Positions 41 through 40,098 of a stretch of 46,255 bases of DNA are shown piece by piece (the first letter of the stretch is position 1; each line of letters starts with the position of its first letter). Position numbers and translations under genes: made by a program. Source of the DNA: Opitutaceae bacterium (GTDB lineage Bacteria; Verrucomicrobiota; Verrucomicrobiia; Opitutales; Opitutaceae); contig NZNM01000076.1 in the NCBI GenBank assembly GCA_002694885.1, forward strand, positions 1-46,255, written 5' to 3'. Below the pieces are notes generated by a model, which did no database searches, was not told where the DNA came from, and saw nothing but the letters and a program-made list of their open reading frames with translations.

Positions 41-532
41 ATGCAGAGAGACGGTCCAAAAATTCTCCAAATACAAGTGTCGCCGGGTCACGATTTTAAG
101 GGGCGGCATGGAAAGAGTAGATTGCGAAATGAATCGATCAGCTTAAAGGAAGTTGAGTGCGTAGCCGGAAAGGGCCTGCGAGGCGATCGGTTTTTTGACT
201 ACAAAGAGGATTTCAAGGGGCAGGTCACGTTTTTCGACCAGGCGGTAGCTGATGATCTGCAGCAGCGACTAGGTTTGTCCTCCCTCGATTTTACAAGTAC
301 GCGACGAAATGTGTTGGTTGCGGGTATCGACTTGAGCAAGCTAATCGGGAAGCGGTTTTCAATAGGCGAAGTCGCCTTTATTGGGGTCGAGGAATGCGCT
401 CCTTGCTATTGGATGAACGAAGCCTTGGGACCTGGGGCAGAACAAATGATGCGAGGTCGTGGTGGTCTCAGATGCCGCATTTTGTCGGGGGGAGTGCTCA
501 GAGTTGGCGATGTGGAAATTGCTGAATGGTAA
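41..532 (+). CDS. MOSC domain protein
   Basis: A protein of about 163 residues built almost entirely of one MOSC domain, the beta-barrel fold of molybdenum-cofactor sulfurase C-termini and of YiiM-type proteins that handle sulfur or N-hydroxylated substrates. The family signature is visible: GLRGDRFFDY near residue 45, an RRNV segment near residue 90, then ECAPCYWMNEALGPG and a GRGGLRCRILSGG stretch before the terminal VGD. The Cys of ECAPC sits where the conserved MOSC Cys lies. I chose the ATG at 41; an in-frame TTG at 11 would add ten residues with no family likeness. No molybdenum-cofactor genes are nearby, so the substrate cannot be inferred. The family call is secure; the function is not known. 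Confidence 0.82.
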   Translation: MQRDGPKILQIQVSPGHDFKGRHGKSRLRNESISLKEVECVAGKGLRGDRFFDYKEDFKGQVTFFDQAVADDLQQRLGLSSLDFTSTRRNVLVAGIDLSKLIGKRFSIGEVAFIGVEECAPCYWMNEALGPGAEQMMRGRGGLRCRILSGGVLRVGDVEIAEW

Positions 533-31403: not shown

Positions 31404-32390
31404 ATGCAGGTACTACGATTAGCCATTTTTTTGACGCTTTTGATTGCGGGCTCCTTCTCCATTGCACTTGGCCAATCTGAAGATGCTGAGTTGAGCATTG
31501 CAGTTGTGCCCAAGGGGACGGATAGGGAACGCTGGAAAGCCATTCATGAAGGAGCCTTGAAAGCCAGTGAGGAATTGGCTAGGGAAGGCGTCCGCGTTAA
31601 GATTTTGTGGAAAGGCGATTCGGTAGATCCGAGGGAAAAGCAGATTCAAGTTGTGGATACGTTTACGGGGCAACGCTTAAGCGGAATTTTGGTTGCCTCT
31701 TTTGATGAGGATCAGTTTGCCGGCGGAATCCGAATAGATAGGGGAGCGGAATTGCCAACGGTTTACATTGATTCTGGTTTGGATGCAGACCGGCCGATTA
31801 GCTATGTGGCTACTGACAATTTTGAAGGCGGTGCGCTAGCCGCTGATCGGATTGGCCAGTTGATAGATGGAGTAGGCAATGTCATTCTTTTACGACACCA
31901 GCAGGGAGATTCTAATGCTGAAGCCCGTGAGGCTGGTTTTATCGAGCGGGTCAAGTCAGGCTATCCATCCATTCGAATGCTGTCGATCGACCAGTACGCG
32001 GGTGAGAGCAATAGTGACGCCCATCGCGCTTCTGAGTACTTGCTAAATCGATACGGTCGGAGGGTAAATGCGATTTTCGCGTCGAGCATGCAGGGAACTG
32101 ATGGAATGCTACAGGCTCTAAGGGATTTCAATCTCGCAGGACAAGTGTATTTGGTTGGCCACGATGCATCCGCGGAGTCGATTCAAGCGGTTCGCAATGG
32201 GGAAATTCAGGGATTGCTCGTAACGAATCCTTACAGGATGGGTTATCTCGCTGTGACCACGCTGGTAGACCACATTCAAGGTGGGAATATGCCGACGATT
32301 GTGGATACAGGAATAACTCTTGTGACAATGGCTAATATCGAGAGCGACGAGGTAAAGGAAGCCTTGGGCGCTGCTAGCGAATCCCTGTAA
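31404..32390 (+). CDS. periplasmic sugar-type binding protein (type 1)
   Basis: A 328-residue secreted protein. A signal peptide (residues 1-23, cleaved near SIALG-QSE) is followed by a two-lobed type 1 periplasmic-binding fold like ribose-binding protein RbsB: LSIAVVPKGTDRERWKAIHEGALKA, GILVASFDEDQF in the first lobe, YVATDNFEGGALAADRIGQLI, then NAIFASSMQGTDGMLQALRDF and VYLVGHDASAESIQAVRNGEIQGLLVTNPYRMGYLAV. These feed ABC importers or chemoreceptors. No permease or ATPase is adjacent, so it is an orphan whose partner lies elsewhere, or it acts as a sensor. The ligand is unknown. Confidence 0.88.
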   Translation: MQVLRLAIFLTLLIAGSFSIALGQSEDAELSIAVVPKGTDRERWKAIHEGALKASEELAREGVRVKILWKGDSVDPREKQIQVVDTFTGQRLSGILVASFDEDQFAGGIRIDRGAELPTVYIDSGLDADRPISYVATDNFEGGALAADRIGQLIDGVGNVILLRHQQGDSNAEAREAGFIERVKSGYPSIRMLSIDQYAGESNSDAHRASEYLLNRYGRRVNAIFASSMQGTDGMLQALRDFNLAGQVYLVGHDASAESIQAVRNGEIQGLLVTNPYRMGYLAVTTLVDHIQGGNMPTIVDTGITLVTMANIESDEVKEALGAASESL

Positions 32391-32447
32391 TAGAGGGTGA
32401 AGCGCGATGAATCGATAGATACAGCCCAGCGAATCTAGGCAGGGTTT

Positions 32448-33392
32448 ATGCTTCGGTTGCCCAAACAGATCTACTTGCTTATTGCAGCAGCGGTTGTATT
32501 GGGATTCCTGTTAAGGCAGATCGATCGGAAAACTTCCGAGGCTGGCGAGTCGATAATCGAAGCGGAGCTGATTCAAGGGATTCCCGCTATTCCGAATCTG
32601 GCCGGATGGCCTCGAAAATTTCTAGAGGAACTCAAGAGTGTCCATGCGGGTTTCCAAGAGGTGGAAGGGAGAATGGAGGCGTTGGCAAGTTTGGGAGAGT
32701 TGTATCTGGCGAATGGATTTTATGGCGAAGCCCAACAGTGCTTCTCAACATTGGTTATCCTGGATCCTGAGAATCCTCGCTGGCCCTATTTTCTAGGTAT
32801 TACGACGAGAGATTATCGTGACAAGCGAATCGCGATTGACGCTTTCGAGCGCGCCATTCGCCTGGATGATGCGTATCTAAATATTCGATATGAGCTAGGG
32901 TCGGTTTATGTGGCTTCCGGTTACATTCTCGATTCGGTAGACCATTTTAAGGCCTTAAGCCAAGACGATGTATGGAGGCCTTGGGCACACTTTGGCCTGG
33001 CGAGGGGATTTTCGGCAGAAGGGCGCTATAATGAAGCATCCGAACATTTGATTGAAGCAGTCAAGCTAGAGCCTGAGGCTCGATCGATACATGCTCTATT
33101 GAGCGAGGTGGCGTTGAATCAGGGCGATCGGGAAACGGCTTTGGAATCGCAGCGAGAAAGGGATAACCTGGGTTTCGATAAGACTCCCTATGATCCTTGG
33201 GTTCAATCGCTTGCGGATCGATGCTATGATCCGATTCGCCTGATAAAGTTAGCAAGAGCGGAAGTCTTTGGCGAAAACATCGATGCGGCCGGCGAGATGC
33301 TTGCCAGATTGGATCAGTTCTCCGGGGAGAAGGCGCAGGACATGGCGGAAGTGAAAGCTCTGAGGGAGCTGATAGAAGGCGATACCGATTAG
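32448..33392 (+). CDS. membrane-anchored TPR protein
   Basis: A 314-residue protein with an N-terminal hydrophobic anchor (QIYLLIAAAVVLGFLL, residues 6-21) and an extracytoplasmic domain of at least four tetratricopeptide repeats. Clear units are YLANGFYGEAQQCFSTLVILDPENP, then DKRIAIDAFERAIRLDDAYL, and AEGRYNEASEHLIEAVKLEPEA. It follows the binding-protein gene by 57 bp on the same strand and ends before the Pho-box-like array. It is probably a scaffold or assembly factor in the periplasm; the partner is unknown. It is not obviously part of the phosphate operon. Confidence 0.75.
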   Translation: MLRLPKQIYLLIAAAVVLGFLLRQIDRKTSEAGESIIEAELIQGIPAIPNLAGWPRKFLEELKSVHAGFQEVEGRMEALASLGELYLANGFYGEAQQCFSTLVILDPENPRWPYFLGITTRDYRDKRIAIDAFERAIRLDDAYLNIRYELGSVYVASGYILDSVDHFKALSQDDVWRPWAHFGLARGFSAEGRYNEASEHLIEAVKLEPEARSIHALLSEVALNQGDRETALESQRERDNLGFDKTPYDPWVQSLADRCYDPIRLIKLARAEVFGENIDAAGEMLARLDQFSGEKAQDMAEVKALRELIEGDTD

Positions 33393-33597: not shown

Positions 33598-34737
33598 ATG
33601 AGAAAGAACTTCACGTTGAAGCTTGCTGCGTGCGCTGTGCTCGCGTGCGTTGCAGCAGGGGCCGAGGTTTTGGCAGATTCGATTAACTACGACAAAATTT
33701 GGAACGCTCCAATAGTGAAAAAATTGGGCTTTACCGGTCGTCTGCAAGGAGACGCCCACCATTTCGATGGGGAGGACAAGTCGAACGACGACCTGGCTTG
33801 GCGCCGTTTCCGCGTAGGCTTCAAAAAGAGCGTTGAGAGCGACGTAGTGCTGCACAGCGAAATGGACCTGAACATTGACGGTATCAACAACTGGGACGAC
33901 TTTTACCTGCGCCTGACCGATACATATGTGGGATGGAACCCGTCCAGCGAAACAAAATTCAAATTCGGCAAGCAGTCTGCAGGCTTCACTCTCGATGGCT
34001 CGACCTCTTCCAAATCGCTCATCGTTCCGGAACGCAATATCGTTGCCGGAAACCTCTGGTTCGGCACCGAGTACTTCACTGGCGCTAGCGTTGGTGGCGT
34101 TATTGATGTATGGAGTTATAAGGCGGGCGTTTTTTCCTCCAGTGGCGAAGCTGAGTTTGGCCACTTCGATGCTGGCTACTTCGGCCTGTTTTCCATCGGC
34201 CAAGCGGTCGGCGAAGATGGCTCGTGGCGCCTGGACTACGTGTACAACGATCCGGATTACTCCACCGACCACCGTAACTTCAAAGGCAGGCTGGATGTAG
34301 GCACTGCTGATCACGAGCACGTACTTGCATTTGTCTACAAGCAGATGATTAACGAAAGTCTTGGCATTTGGGCCGATATCGCAACCTCCAAGGGTGTTGT
34401 GGACTCCGCTTTCGGTGTTGACCAGAGCGACCTGTTCGGTTTCAGCATCAAGCCCTTCTACAACTTCAGCGACAAGTTGCAACTCGTGGTTGAGTATGCG
34501 AGCGTTACGAGTCTGGACGACGAGCGGGATGTAAAGCTCGCCCGCTATGCCGCCAAAAACGACGCAGCCAAGGTTGAGACCGCCCACAACTTTCTGCTTG
34601 GTTTCAACTGGTACCTATATGACCACAAGCTGAAATGGCACAACGCGGTCGAGTACAACTATGGAGACAACCAGAGCGGTTCCGGCGACGACTACAGCGG
34701 CTACGGCCTAACGTCCGCCTTCCGCATCAGCTGGTAA
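33598..34737 (+). CDS. phosphate-selective porin (OprO/OprP type)
   Basis: A 379-residue outer-membrane porin. The signal peptide is MRKNFTLKLAACAVLACVAAGAEVLA. Mature features of the OprP family are an early GFTGRLQGDAHHF strand, AWRRFRVGFKKSVESDVVLHSEMDL, DDFYLRLTDTYVGW, FKFGKQSAGF, and a barrel of alternating strands ending in a terminal aromatic residue, FRISW. OprP-like porins admit phosphate or pyrophosphate, and being the first gene after the Pho-box-like array supports that substrate. ATG 33598 is chosen because it opens the signal peptide; the longer frame from 33442 begins inside the operator. The pstS start is 56 bp downstream. Confidence 0.87.
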   Translation: MRKNFTLKLAACAVLACVAAGAEVLADSINYDKIWNAPIVKKLGFTGRLQGDAHHFDGEDKSNDDLAWRRFRVGFKKSVESDVVLHSEMDLNIDGINNWDDFYLRLTDTYVGWNPSSETKFKFGKQSAGFTLDGSTSSKSLIVPERNIVAGNLWFGTEYFTGASVGGVIDVWSYKAGVFSSSGEAEFGHFDAGYFGLFSIGQAVGEDGSWRLDYVYNDPDYSTDHRNFKGRLDVGTADHEHVLAFVYKQMINESLGIWADIATSKGVVDSAFGVDQSDLFGFSIKPFYNFSDKLQLVVEYASVTSLDDERDVKLARYAAKNDAAKVETAHNFLLGFNWYLYDHKLKWHNAVEYNYGDNQSGSGDDYSGYGLTSAFRISW

Positions 34738-35868: not shown

Positions 35869-37461
35869 ATGGATAAGCGCAGTTTCAAAAGCCGCTACCA
35901 GCTAGCGTGTAACCGAAAGTCATTCTTGGGACTAACCAGGGAAAGCGCGCTCAAGGGATTGTTCGGCGGCAATGCGTTCGTTTCGATTGTCGTGCTCGGC
36001 CTCATCACATTGTTCCTGTTCAAAGAAGGCGCGGGATTTTTTGGCCAGTATAGAGATAGTCTATTGCTCTACAGGCAATCGGGCCTCGAGTATGTAGAGC
36101 TGATGCGGGGGCAGCAAAATGCGCTTTCAGCGCTGACCCGCTATCTGAATTCCATTCGTTCTCGGCAGGTTGAAAAGCTAGCGGAGGAGGGTTACGACTT
36201 TCAAGAATCGCGAGCGATCACGGAAGAGAGCGAGGATTTTTTCTATGATTTCGAAGACCTCGCTGTTCCCTTGAGGGAGCACGTTATCGAGGCAAATGAA
36301 ATTCTTTCTGCTGCCCGCGACTCCTACCAGGAGATGCAGAACTTGTCTGAGCATCGGAAAAGTTTGCTCGAGTCGGGCAGGCAAGACGAAGCCGATGCAT
36401 TGGAAATCCGAGAAATCGACTTCGCCCTCTTTTTTGACATCGTGAAGTCGCGCGAAAGCGAATACATTGAGATCAATGAAAACCTCATCCGAGGGATAGA
36501 GGAGATTCTGCCGTCTGTGCCCTATTTTGGCGATGCGGAATTGCAGGCCAAGACGGAGCGATTCAAAGAGCTCGCGGAGATGTTTATCGAGGAGGTTTCA
36601 AAGTTCGAAGAGAATGTTCTCGCTTGGGAACGCGCGAGATCGGTGCCGATTAGCGAAGCATTTACTTCGTTTATATTCGGGAAAAAATGGGTAACGAATA
36701 GTTCGATACAAGATTGGTACGGGCTGATTCCATTAATGTCCGGATCCTTTCTGGTGGCTTTGGTAGCCATGTTTTTCGCGGTTCCCTTAGGTATCGGAGC
36801 GGCCATTTACGTGAATCAGGTTGCGCGATCCCTTGAGCGCGATCTCATTAAGCCCTACATTGAGTTTATATCCGCTATTCCGTCAGTAGTGATAGGTTTC
36901 TTTGGTATCGCTGTGTTTGGAACATTGATACGAGAAGTCTCGGGATGGGAGTCGCTCGCGTGGATAGACTTTTTTCCGATAAGCGAGCGTTTGAATGCCT
37001 TCACGGCTGGCGGGCTATTGGCTCTAATGGCGATCCCGACTATTTTCACGCTCGCCGAGGATGCACTCAATAACGTCCCGCTTTCGTACAAAGAAGCATC
37101 CATGGCAATGGGTTCGACGCGGTTGCAAACAATCTTGAGAATCATCGTTCCCACGGCTCTGTCAGGCATCATATCAGCGGTGTTGCTGGGATTTGGTCGA
37201 GTGATTGGGGAAACGATGGTCGTGTTGCTTTGCGCTGGCAACCGGATCGAGATTCCAAGATTCGCTGAGGGCATAGGAGTCGTTTTTGAGCCTGTCCATA
37301 CGATGACAGGGATAATCGCCCAGGAATTAGGCGAGGTAGTCCATGGAAGCATGCATTATCGAGCATTGTTCATGGTTGGCCTCGTTCTTTTTCTCATCTC
37401 CTTGTTGATCAACTATTTTGCGCAGAAGATAGTGATGAAGTTCCAGATCTCCAGAGGTTAG
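35869..37461 (+). CDS. pstC: phosphate ABC transporter permease PstC, with large periplasmic insert
   Basis: A 530-residue permease, where PstC usually has 290-330. TM1 is at about 34-51. A hydrophilic, strongly helical and acidic region of about 205 residues (about 60-265) follows before the usual FIFGKKW entrance to TM2 at about 286. After that the normal PstC core resumes: PLGIGAAIYVNQ, FISAIPSVVIGFFGIAVFG, and the ATPase-coupling EAA loop NNVPLSYKEASMAMGSTRLQTI with ISAVLLGFGRVIGETM. The insert should lie on the periplasmic side and may contact PstS or a sensor. It contains no stop or frameshift. The gap 35631-35868 before it shows no gene. It is the first permease of the operon. Confidence 0.93.
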   Translation: MDKRSFKSRYQLACNRKSFLGLTRESALKGLFGGNAFVSIVVLGLITLFLFKEGAGFFGQYRDSLLLYRQSGLEYVELMRGQQNALSALTRYLNSIRSRQVEKLAEEGYDFQESRAITEESEDFFYDFEDLAVPLREHVIEANEILSAARDSYQEMQNLSEHRKSLLESGRQDEADALEIREIDFALFFDIVKSRESEYIEINENLIRGIEEILPSVPYFGDAELQAKTERFKELAEMFIEEVSKFEENVLAWERARSVPISEAFTSFIFGKKWVTNSSIQDWYGLIPLMSGSFLVALVAMFFAVPLGIGAAIYVNQVARSLERDLIKPYIEFISAIPSVVIGFFGIAVFGTLIREVSGWESLAWIDFFPISERLNAFTAGGLLALMAIPTIFTLAEDALNNVPLSYKEASMAMGSTRLQTILRIIVPTALSGIISAVLLGFGRVIGETMVVLLCAGNRIEIPRFAEGIGVVFEPVHTMTGIIAQELGEVVHGSMHYRALFMVGLVLFLISLLINYFAQKIVMKFQISRG

Positions 37462-37470
37462 GTTGACGTT

Positions 37471-38532
37471 ATGAGCCCCTCCAAAACAGTCGTCCGTGAA
37501 TCCATGGAAAAGTCTCTTTTCGGAAAATCCACGAAGAGCAAGGTAGTGGAACGCCTGGTATTCGCTCTTTTCCGTTTGAGCACGTATTTTGTGCTCCTGT
37601 GCGCGGCAACTATATTCGTAGACATCGTCTACAAAGGTGGTAAAACAGTTTTCCGCAGTGAGTTTCCATTCTTGAATGTGGAATTCCTTTCGGATTCTCC
37701 ACAGACGTTACACGTATTTGAGCATCAGGGTCGCAAATATGAAATGAGCGATTCTAAGTTCAGGAGTTTCCGGGAAGGAATCGACGAACCAATCGTAACA
37801 GAGACATACGCCTATTCAGGGGGAGGCATTTGGCCCTGTATTGCCGGAACGTTGCTCCTCGTTGCTGGGGCGATGATAATCGCAATGACTTTGGGTGTTC
37901 TCAGCGCGATTTTCTTGAGTGAGTATTCGCGCCCCGGGAAAATCTTGAACGCCGTCAGGCTGTCCATTCTGAATCTGGCAGGAGTCCCGTCCATTGTATT
38001 TGGTATTTTCGGTATGGGGATGTTCGTATTGGCCTTTGGCTGGAACGTTTCCTTAATCGCGGGCTGGTTTACTTTGGCCTTCATGGTGTTGCCGATAATC
38101 ATTTCCGCTAGCGAGGAATCCATGAGGGCTATTCCGCAAGGCATGCGCGACGCCTCTTTTGCCCTGGGAGCCACCCAATGGACTACGATTAGAACCAATG
38201 TCTTGCCCTACGCCATGCCCGGTATTCTGACATCTTCGATCATTGGCGTCGCTAGAGTAGCTGGGGAAACGGCTCCAATCATGTTCACCGCGGCCTACGC
38301 TCTTCGAGATCAGCTGCCATGGGAAGGGCTCGAGCGTTGGTACGATCTGTTTTTCCAGGGTGTTATGGCTCTCCCTTACCACATTTACGTAGTCAGCGCC
38401 AAAATTCCTCAGAATGAATACACTTCAAGAATGCAGTATGGCACGGCTTTCGTGTTTTTATTTATCATCGCTGCCATCGCCTTGAGCTCCATTTTGCTAA
38501 GAATCCGTATGAGAAAGAAATATCGCTGGTAA
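37471..38532 (+). CDS. pstA: phosphate ABC transporter permease PstA
   Basis: A 353-residue permease, longer than the usual 280-300. After TM1 (about 34-52) there is an extracytoplasmic stretch of about 70 residues ([20 protein letters not shown] and beyond) before the standard core: [52 protein letters not shown], and the coupling loop [22 protein letters not shown] with [14 protein letters not shown]. It pairs with PstC to form the channel. It begins nine bases after pstC and its stop overlaps an alternative pstB start, consistent with one transcript. Confidence 0.95.
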
Positions 38533-38570
38533 TGTCCTTAGTATCGCTCAGACTTCAAAAGGAAATAAAG

Positions 38571-39368
38571 ATGGATACTCCTGCAGTTGATTCCCAGAGG
38601 GTGGATAGAAACCGGCCGTTGATACGGATTTCCGATTTCGATTTTTCGTACGGCGATAAACAAGCGCTCTTCGATATTAACATGGATATCGCTGAGCATA
38701 AAGTTACCGCTTTTATTGGCCCGTCGGGCTGCGGCAAGAGCACTCTACTTCGTTGCTTAAACCGCATGAATGATCTCATCGAATCTGCTCGAATAAATCG
38801 TGGAAAAGTAGAAGTTAATGGGGTCGATATTTACGATGAACGCGTGGATGCGACGGAATTGAGAAAGCGCATCGGCATGGTTTTCCAGAAATCGAATCCG
38901 TTTCCCAAGAGCATTTACGAAAACGTGATTTACGGTTTACGAATTCAAGGGATCAAGAAAAAGTCTCAACTCGATGAAACTGTGGAGCGTTGTCTCAAGG
39001 GAGCCGCTCTTTGGGAAGAGGTTAAGGACCGATTGGATACAAGCGGATTAAGCCTTTCAGGCGGGCAGCAGCAGCGGCTTTGCATAGCTCGGGCGATGGC
39101 GGTAGGGCCGGAAGTTTTGTTGATGGATGAACCTTGCTCTGCATTGGATCCAGTAGCCACCGCGAAAATCGAGGAACTCATTCATGAACTTAAGAATGAT
39201 TACACAATCGTAATTGTTACGCACAACATGCAACAAGCTGCCCGCGTTTCTGATCAAACGGCCTTTTTTTACATGGGAAATTTGATCGAAATGAATGCGA
39301 CCGACCAGATTTTCATGAGTCCGGATAAGGAGCAAACAGAGGCTTATATATCCGGGCGCTTTGGATGA
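38571..39368 (+). CDS. pstB: phosphate ABC transporter ATPase PstB
   Basis: A 265-residue ATPase that drives phosphate import. Walker A is [21 protein letters not shown], a typical PstB spelling. The Q-loop is [20 protein letters not shown], the signature [16 protein letters not shown], Walker [14 protein letters not shown] and the switch His in [13 protein letters not shown] 38571 is chosen because AAGGA lies eight bases upstream and MDTPAVDS gives the usual length. An earlier ATG at 38532 overlaps the pstA stop and would add thirteen residues. PstB also takes part in signalling to PhoU and the PhoR kinase, which is not in this window. Confidence 0.97.
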
Positions 39369-39423: not shown

Positions 39424-40098
39424 ATGGAACGTTACTTTCACGAAGAGCTCGAAGCGGTCCGTTCGCACCTCATGGAAATGGGCGAGCGAGCGGTGGAAAG
39501 CGCTAATCTCGCCTTGAGAGCCTTAGAGCAACGGGATCTCGACATCGCTGACAGCGTTATAGAAGGGGATGACATAATCGACGCGATCGAAACCCGGATC
39601 GATGAGGAGGTCGCGCGCTACATCAGCTTGAGAGCCCCGGTCGCGAAGGATCTGCGATTGCTTTTCGTTGCCGTGAAGGCGAGTCACGATCTCGAGCGTG
39701 TTGGTGATGAGGCGACAAGTATCGCAAAGAGGACCAAGAAGATCTTAGCCAGCAATGAGACCTATCGGGGATTGGGGCGTGTGCCTGACATGTGTGAACT
39801 TGCGATAAGTATGCTGAAAGAGGCTTTACTTAGCTTTATTCAGGAAGAAGAGGACATCGCCCACCAAATTATTAGACGAGATAAGGAAGTGGACGCGTTA
39901 AACCGCGAAAATTTCAAAGAATTCGTGGAACTGATGAAAGACGATCCATCCAAAGTAGACGTATATGCGGAAATGATTTTCATTTCGAAATCGTTCGAGC
40001 GAATTGCGGACCACGCCAAGAATATATCCGAAGAGGTATACTTTCTCCTGACATCCCAATCTTTGAAGCAAGTGATCAAAGAAGAGACTAAATCCTAG
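39424..40098 (+). CDS. phoU: phosphate signalling protein PhoU
   Basis: A 224-residue cytosolic protein of two three-helix PhoU repeats. The N-terminal repeat has HLMEMGERAVESANLALRALEQRDLDIADSVIEGDDIIDAIETRIDEE, with acidic metal-binding clusters; the second has DVYAEMIFISKSFERIADHAKNISEEVYFLL, the family's ERIADHAxNI motif. PhoU lowers pst transport and Pho signalling when phosphate is plentiful. It is the last gene of the porin-pstSCAB-phoU block, 55 bp after pstB. No phoR or phoB follows. Confidence 0.96.
   Translation: MERYFHEELEAVRSHLMEMGERAVESANLALRALEQRDLDIADSVIEGDDIIDAIETRIDEEVARYISLRAPVAKDLRLLFVAVKASHDLERVGDEATSIAKRTKKILASNETYRGLGRVPDMCELAISMLKEALLSFIQEEEDIAHQIIRRDKEVDALNRENFKEFVELMKDDPSKVDVYAEMIFISKSFERIADHAKNISEEVYFLLTSQSLKQVIKEETKS

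Follow-up and report, generated by a model that had tools for sequence, protein, structure and literature searches.

A conserved, lineage-specific periplasmic domain between TM1 and TM2 of the phosphate permease subunit PstC in Verrucomicrobiota

What might a phosphate permease subunit do with a domain-sized segment on the periplasmic side of the membrane? The question is raised by the pst operon in a stretch of 46,255 nucleotides from an Opitutaceae bacterium (contig NZNM01000076.1; the whole stretch is hereinafter the window). A preliminary description of this DNA had assigned about 205 extra periplasmic residues to its PstC and proposed that they form, together with an enlarged loop of PstA, a dock for PstS or a sensor of periplasmic phosphate. 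Here we examine the site, fold, distribution and relatives of this segment (hereinafter the insert) and weigh the functions that it might have.

The pst operon and the extra segment of PstC

Open reading frames and family profiles give the gene order porin, pstS, pstC, pstA, pstB and phoU on the + strand (Table 1). Judged by profile and operon context, the window PstC is a phosphate permease subunit: its TIGR02138 score exceeds the curated threshold of 196.45 bits, and pstS, pstA, pstB and phoU all adjoin it. The window PstS scores slightly below the TIGR02136 cut-off of 206.6 bits, and the genome contains no further match to that profile. As the porin gene is placed directly 5′ of pstS, the genes for outer- and inner-membrane phosphate uptake adjoin each other. 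Further 5′ of the porin (31404–33392) are genes for a periplasmic binding protein of the sugar type (PF13407) and for a TPR protein, an arrangement also seen in one related locus (L066).

Table 1. Features of the pst locus in window coordinates, with residue numbers of the respective protein
Feature	Residues	Position	Strand	Basis
Phosphate-selective porin (OprO/OprP type), 5′ of pstS		33598..34737	+	PF07396, E=1.2e-10; start codon inferred
pstS, partner substrate-binding protein	278 aa	34794..35630	+	TIGR02136, 196 bits; start inferred from signal peptide
pstC, with TM1–TM2 insert	530 aa	35869..37461	+	ORF; TIGR02138, 245.8 bits; PF00528 at residues 305–517
TM1 of PstC	31–49	35959..36015	+	hydropathy; in the model a single helix (24–71) from membrane into insert
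Insert, all-helical periplasmic domain	56–260	36034..36648	+	AlphaFold2 models; no Pfam/NCBIfam match
Insert helices	~52–71, 73–106, 111–130, 133–168, 185–193, 196–216, 223–252		+	model
Conserved motif YRxxGLEYVE (family YRxAGLEYVD), invariant R69, G72, E74	68–77	36070..36099	+	77-sequence alignment
TM2 of PstC, start of permease core	295–313	36751..36807	+	hydropathy
pstA	353 aa	37471..38532	+	TIGR00974, 240.9 bits
Enlarged first periplasmic loop of PstA (80 aa)	49–128	37615..37854	+	loop-length survey
pstB		38532..39368	+	TIGR00972, 410 bits
phoU		39424..40098	+	TIGR02135, 207.9 bits

The canonical PstC (E. coli, 9k3s/9k3x/9k3y; TIGR02138) shares with the window protein the permease core, the six-TM layout and the operon with pstS, pstA, pstB and phoU. 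However, TIGR02138 covers only residues 265–525 of the window PstC, and the alignment of the E. coli protein (9k3x) is likewise limited to residues 266–525. By hydropathy, the TM1–TM2 loop of the window PstC, which holds the helical domain, spans 245 residues, as compared to 33–45 (median 41) in each of 30 loci with a short PstC from the same phylum, a comparison set that leans to canonical forms since it comprises the top-scoring profile matches. This difference amounts to about 205 extra residues. The first 30 residues of the protein contain eight K/R against two D/E, which places the loop in the periplasm, and the model of the whole PstC aligns with E. coli PstC across residues 22–526 (Z 22.4, rmsd 4.5, 285 residues aligned). 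Loop length, charge bias and model alignment thus agree with the segment first described. Its earlier placement at 36046–36660, equivalent to residues 60–264, falls in the right region, although the boundaries are better set at residues 56–260.

A conserved domain of single origin

Modelled alone with AlphaFold2 (residues 51–276, 71 sequences), the insert yields an all-helical structure with a pLDDT of 92.0 and a pTM of 0.84. The model of the whole PstC has a pLDDT of 79.2 and a pTM of 0.63, with ten-residue blocks of residues 61–260 ranging from 83 to 95, and in it TM1 and the first insert helix are continuous up to residue 71. Across 77 relatives (the window sequence and 76 of 80 loci, L080, L121, L131 and L142 being excluded as shorter than 500 aa), the insert is 205–207 residues long in 57, with a full range of 181–274; the 71-sequence set used for modelling omits L097, L128, L138, L140, L144 and L145, which have longer inserts. 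F57, R69, G72 and E74 occur without exception in the 77 sequences, Y68 and W253 are kept in 76, and L93 is also nearly invariant. At the same time, the mean pairwise identity of the insert is 0.375 as against 0.756 for the core, indicating that the insert evolves faster, and relatives tolerate further extra segments within it. The initial characterization of the insert as acidic and helical holds for the helices and, with a net charge of −22, for the window protein itself, but the acidity is not conserved, the median over the 77 sequences being −4 (range −22 to +5).

No Pfam or NCBIfam family matches the insert (for the window insert, no Pfam family at E≤1), and Foldseek recovers no PDB structure at E≤0.001 with its model. 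The literature that we searched on PstC periplasmic domains, DUF3708, DUF3333 and the terms Verrucomicrobi and Opitut, which included few subscription papers, does not describe it. Hence, within the libraries searched, the insert-bearing PstC represents a hitherto undescribed form of an otherwise well-known transporter.

Used alone as a query, the insert finds matches in 26 of 38 close relatives. When named genomes are scanned with an alignment covering residues 30–345, the best 80 of 382 confirmed loci are all titled as Verrucomicrobiota or subgroups thereof. Across this phylum, the insert profile is present in 62 of 387 genomes, including 35 of the 37 from the window's own family, and lies in open frames of 506–682 aa. 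In a tree built from the PstC core only (79 rows), all 37 insert-bearing proteins, i.e., 36 chosen loci and the window, lie on one side of a branch with an SH-aLRT of 100, with no loss of the insert among them. These results show a single origin of the domain in one large group of Verrucomicrobiota. The preliminary description would have given way had the insert been a common, non-conserved spacer devoid of a fold; instead, it is a conserved, folded and lineage-specific domain.

In L175–L184 (families f10 and f14), the PstC loops reach 353–377 residues, more than 100 longer than that of the window, and the insert profile matches them as two pieces. In L158 (genome G184), the first TM helix of a 621-aa PstC frame begins only at residue 329; its start codon may be misplaced, and its first 300 residues have no Pfam match.

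Strict pairing with one PstS clade

Relatives of the window PstS at an identity of at least 48% occur in 62 of the 387 genomes, and these are exactly the 62 genomes with the insert; in the other 325, the best PstS passing a limit of 1e-40 has 37% identity. In a PstS tree of 52 rows, the 31 sequences taken from insert operons all group in a single clade with an SH-aLRT of 100. Where pstC has no related pstS upstream in its locus, a related pstS with 54–66% identity was found elsewhere in all five genomes searched, two of the five being partial matches. The insert is thus strictly paired with one PstS clade across the 387 genomes. This pairing fits a matched pair of proteins; it could also arise by co-inheritance of the whole cassette, the order PstS, PstC, PstA, PstB, PhoU being kept in 55 of 80 related loci. 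In three loci with pstS elsewhere (L117, L125 and L141), pstC directly follows two genes that, named from their first residues only, look like those for a response regulator and its likely kinase.

The first loop of PstA is indeed enlarged, as had been noted, with its 80 residues exceeding the 3–38 found in 28 of the 30 short loci (the other two have 188). Over 89 loci, the lengths of the PstC and PstA loops are correlated (Spearman 0.69, Pearson 0.88), with contrasts giving an r of 0.53 from only about three independent changes. The addition of 20 loci lowers the Spearman coefficient to 0.58 over 109, and several lineages part company: nine PstC loops of 353–363 residues go with PstA loops of 82–83 (L175–L183), whereas three of 241–249 go with PstA loops of 332–376 (L185–L187, from genomes of family f28). 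The PstA loops of L185 and L187 have no Pfam match above cut-off. Given this divergence of lengths, a joint PstC–PstA structure, and with it that element of the original proposal, is not supported by the loop correlation, which we do not use as evidence.

Known relatives and the function of the insert

Enlarged PstC proteins are known from other lineages. Pseudomonas-type long PstC proteins have about 680 aa. The DUF3708-type PstC (PF12501) of Alpha- and Gammaproteobacteria is likewise long (~460–500 aa), and its partner, the DUF3333-type PstA (PF11812), likewise has an enlarged loop of ~160–183 residues; PstA with DUF3333 and such a loop is also present in Vibrio. However, DUF3708 in the Shinella PstC (residues 7–171) is a TM-loop-TM extension ahead of the classical TM1, and the TM1–TM2 loop of that protein is short. 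Such an N-terminal extension is found in Shinella, NT-25, Vibrio and Acinetobacter, with the Pfam match run on Shinella and NT-25. The window PstC has no match to PF12501 at E≤1, and the sole hit in its genome falls on a different contig (E=0.289); since the insert also lies between TM1 and TM2 rather than before TM1, we reject its assignment to DUF3708. Bacteroidota PstC proteins from Phocaeicola (L064) and Parabacteroides (L149) do have additional domain sequence between TM1 and TM2, but in a loop of ~140 residues with a partial PBP_like_2 match (PF12849; E of about 4e-7, with a score exceeding the gathering threshold). This binding-protein fragment is unrelated to the helical insert, and these proteins branch elsewhere in the core tree. 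The insert itself is not a captured piece of PstS, showing no homology to it (hhalign P 0.73).

Two further systems offer functional precedents. The permease subunit MalF of the maltose transporter likewise has a domain-sized periplasmic loop, P2, after its first core TM helix. Placed between TM3 and TM4, P2 adopts a beta fold, unlike the all-helical model of the PstC insert; the analogy is one of site and role and probably does not extend to a shared domain. The maltose-binding protein MalE reportedly contacts both MalF P2 and MalG P1. The second precedent comes from the HBM and four-helix sensor domains of CtpL, TorS and McpS, which are likewise long helical periplasmic domains beside a TM helix, but belong to chemoreceptors or kinases rather than to a permease. 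The sensor domain of CtpL is reported to form a 1:1 complex with Pi-loaded PstS (KD 3.7 uM; PMC4926252), CtpL carries an HBM domain, and TorS binds TorT (both PMC6321045). The top PDB-chain sequence match of the insert profile is the McpS sensor domain (E=0.0049), and the insert model aligns with McpS 2yfa_B (Z 8.2, 110 residues, rmsd 3.1) and TorS 3o1j_A (Z 9.4, 128 residues, rmsd 4.6), values that are middling for helical bundles; that a family is missing from these match lists does not speak against a relationship to it. When the insert profile is compared with three HBM domains, the result falls short of significance (hhalign probability 3.4%, P=0.013), its alignment falls on another part of the insert than the McpS match, and PF16591 (HBM) has no match in the genome at E≤0.01. 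Accordingly, we do not accept the insert as an HBM domain, and its likeness to the helical sensor domains of McpS, TorS and PilJ is suggestive but not significant.

By analogy with MalF P2, we regard docking of PstS as the best-supported candidate function of the insert and give it about an even chance, based on its position in a MalF-type docking loop and its presence in exactly the 62 genomes with one PstS clade. Of the earlier alternatives of a PstS dock or a sensor, it is the dock that site and pairing favor. Beyond the co-inheritance discussed above, the faster evolution of the insert and the independent lengths of the PstC and PstA loops in several lineages speak against docking; with its charge unconserved as well, any docking surface would need to be confined to a small patch of conserved residues. 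The strict pairing also bears on the idea that the insert is a structural or anchoring domain, which stabilizes PstC–PstA or makes contact with some other component of the periplasm or cell wall: it points to PstS instead, though co-inheritance explains it too. Such an anchor would suit a conserved fold with few invariant residues, a loop that varies by lineage (whole loops of up to 377 residues beyond the 77 aligned sequences) and the enlarged loop of PstA itself; on balance, we find this reading doubtful.

A sensing or signaling domain, which would inform PhoU/PhoR via TM1 of phosphate in the periplasm or of the occupancy of PstS, appears rather unlikely. In its favor, TM1 is continuous with the first insert helix in the model, as is typical where helical sensor domains adjoin the membrane, and the McpS and TorS matches as well as the regulator-like and kinase-like genes preceding pstC in L117, L125 and L141 are consistent with it. 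Against it, the HBM comparison fails to reach significance and the Z-scores fall within the chance range for helical bundles. Finally, the low identity of the insert relative to the core and the extra segments tolerated inside it could be read as signs of a lineage-specific filler with no specific function, but the confidently predicted fold, a length that hardly varies, the invariant residues and the absence of loss among the 37 tree members already largely contradict this, making it very improbable.

For docking, we envisage that the PstC of this lineage gained the ~205-residue all-helical periplasmic domain once, between TM1 and TM2. TM1 would run out of the membrane as one helix into this domain, which would return to TM2 via the conserved segment preceding the core. 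The insert would stand beside the translocation mouth and hold or orient Pi-loaded PstS, as MalF P2 does MalE, and could relay PstS occupancy down TM1. The insert may thereby contact PstS and affect transport or PhoU/PhoR signaling. We consider improbable the more specific version, in which the insert recognizes the Pi-loaded form of one PstS clade and signals its occupancy via TM1 to the PhoU/PhoR switch. If true, the permease itself would be the receptor for its binding protein, this Pst transporter would have a built-in extracytoplasmic sensor, and the insert would represent a previously undescribed helical domain family with a receptor role.

More generally, the loop after TM1 of PstC accepts unrelated extra domains in different phyla, a helical one here and part of a binding protein in Bacteroidota. 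The way in which the Pst transporter informs PhoR about external phosphate is presented as an open question in PMC5775613. Since its periplasmic domain is separable and goes with a single PstS clade, the PstC described here offers a setting in which docking, transport and signaling might be separated.
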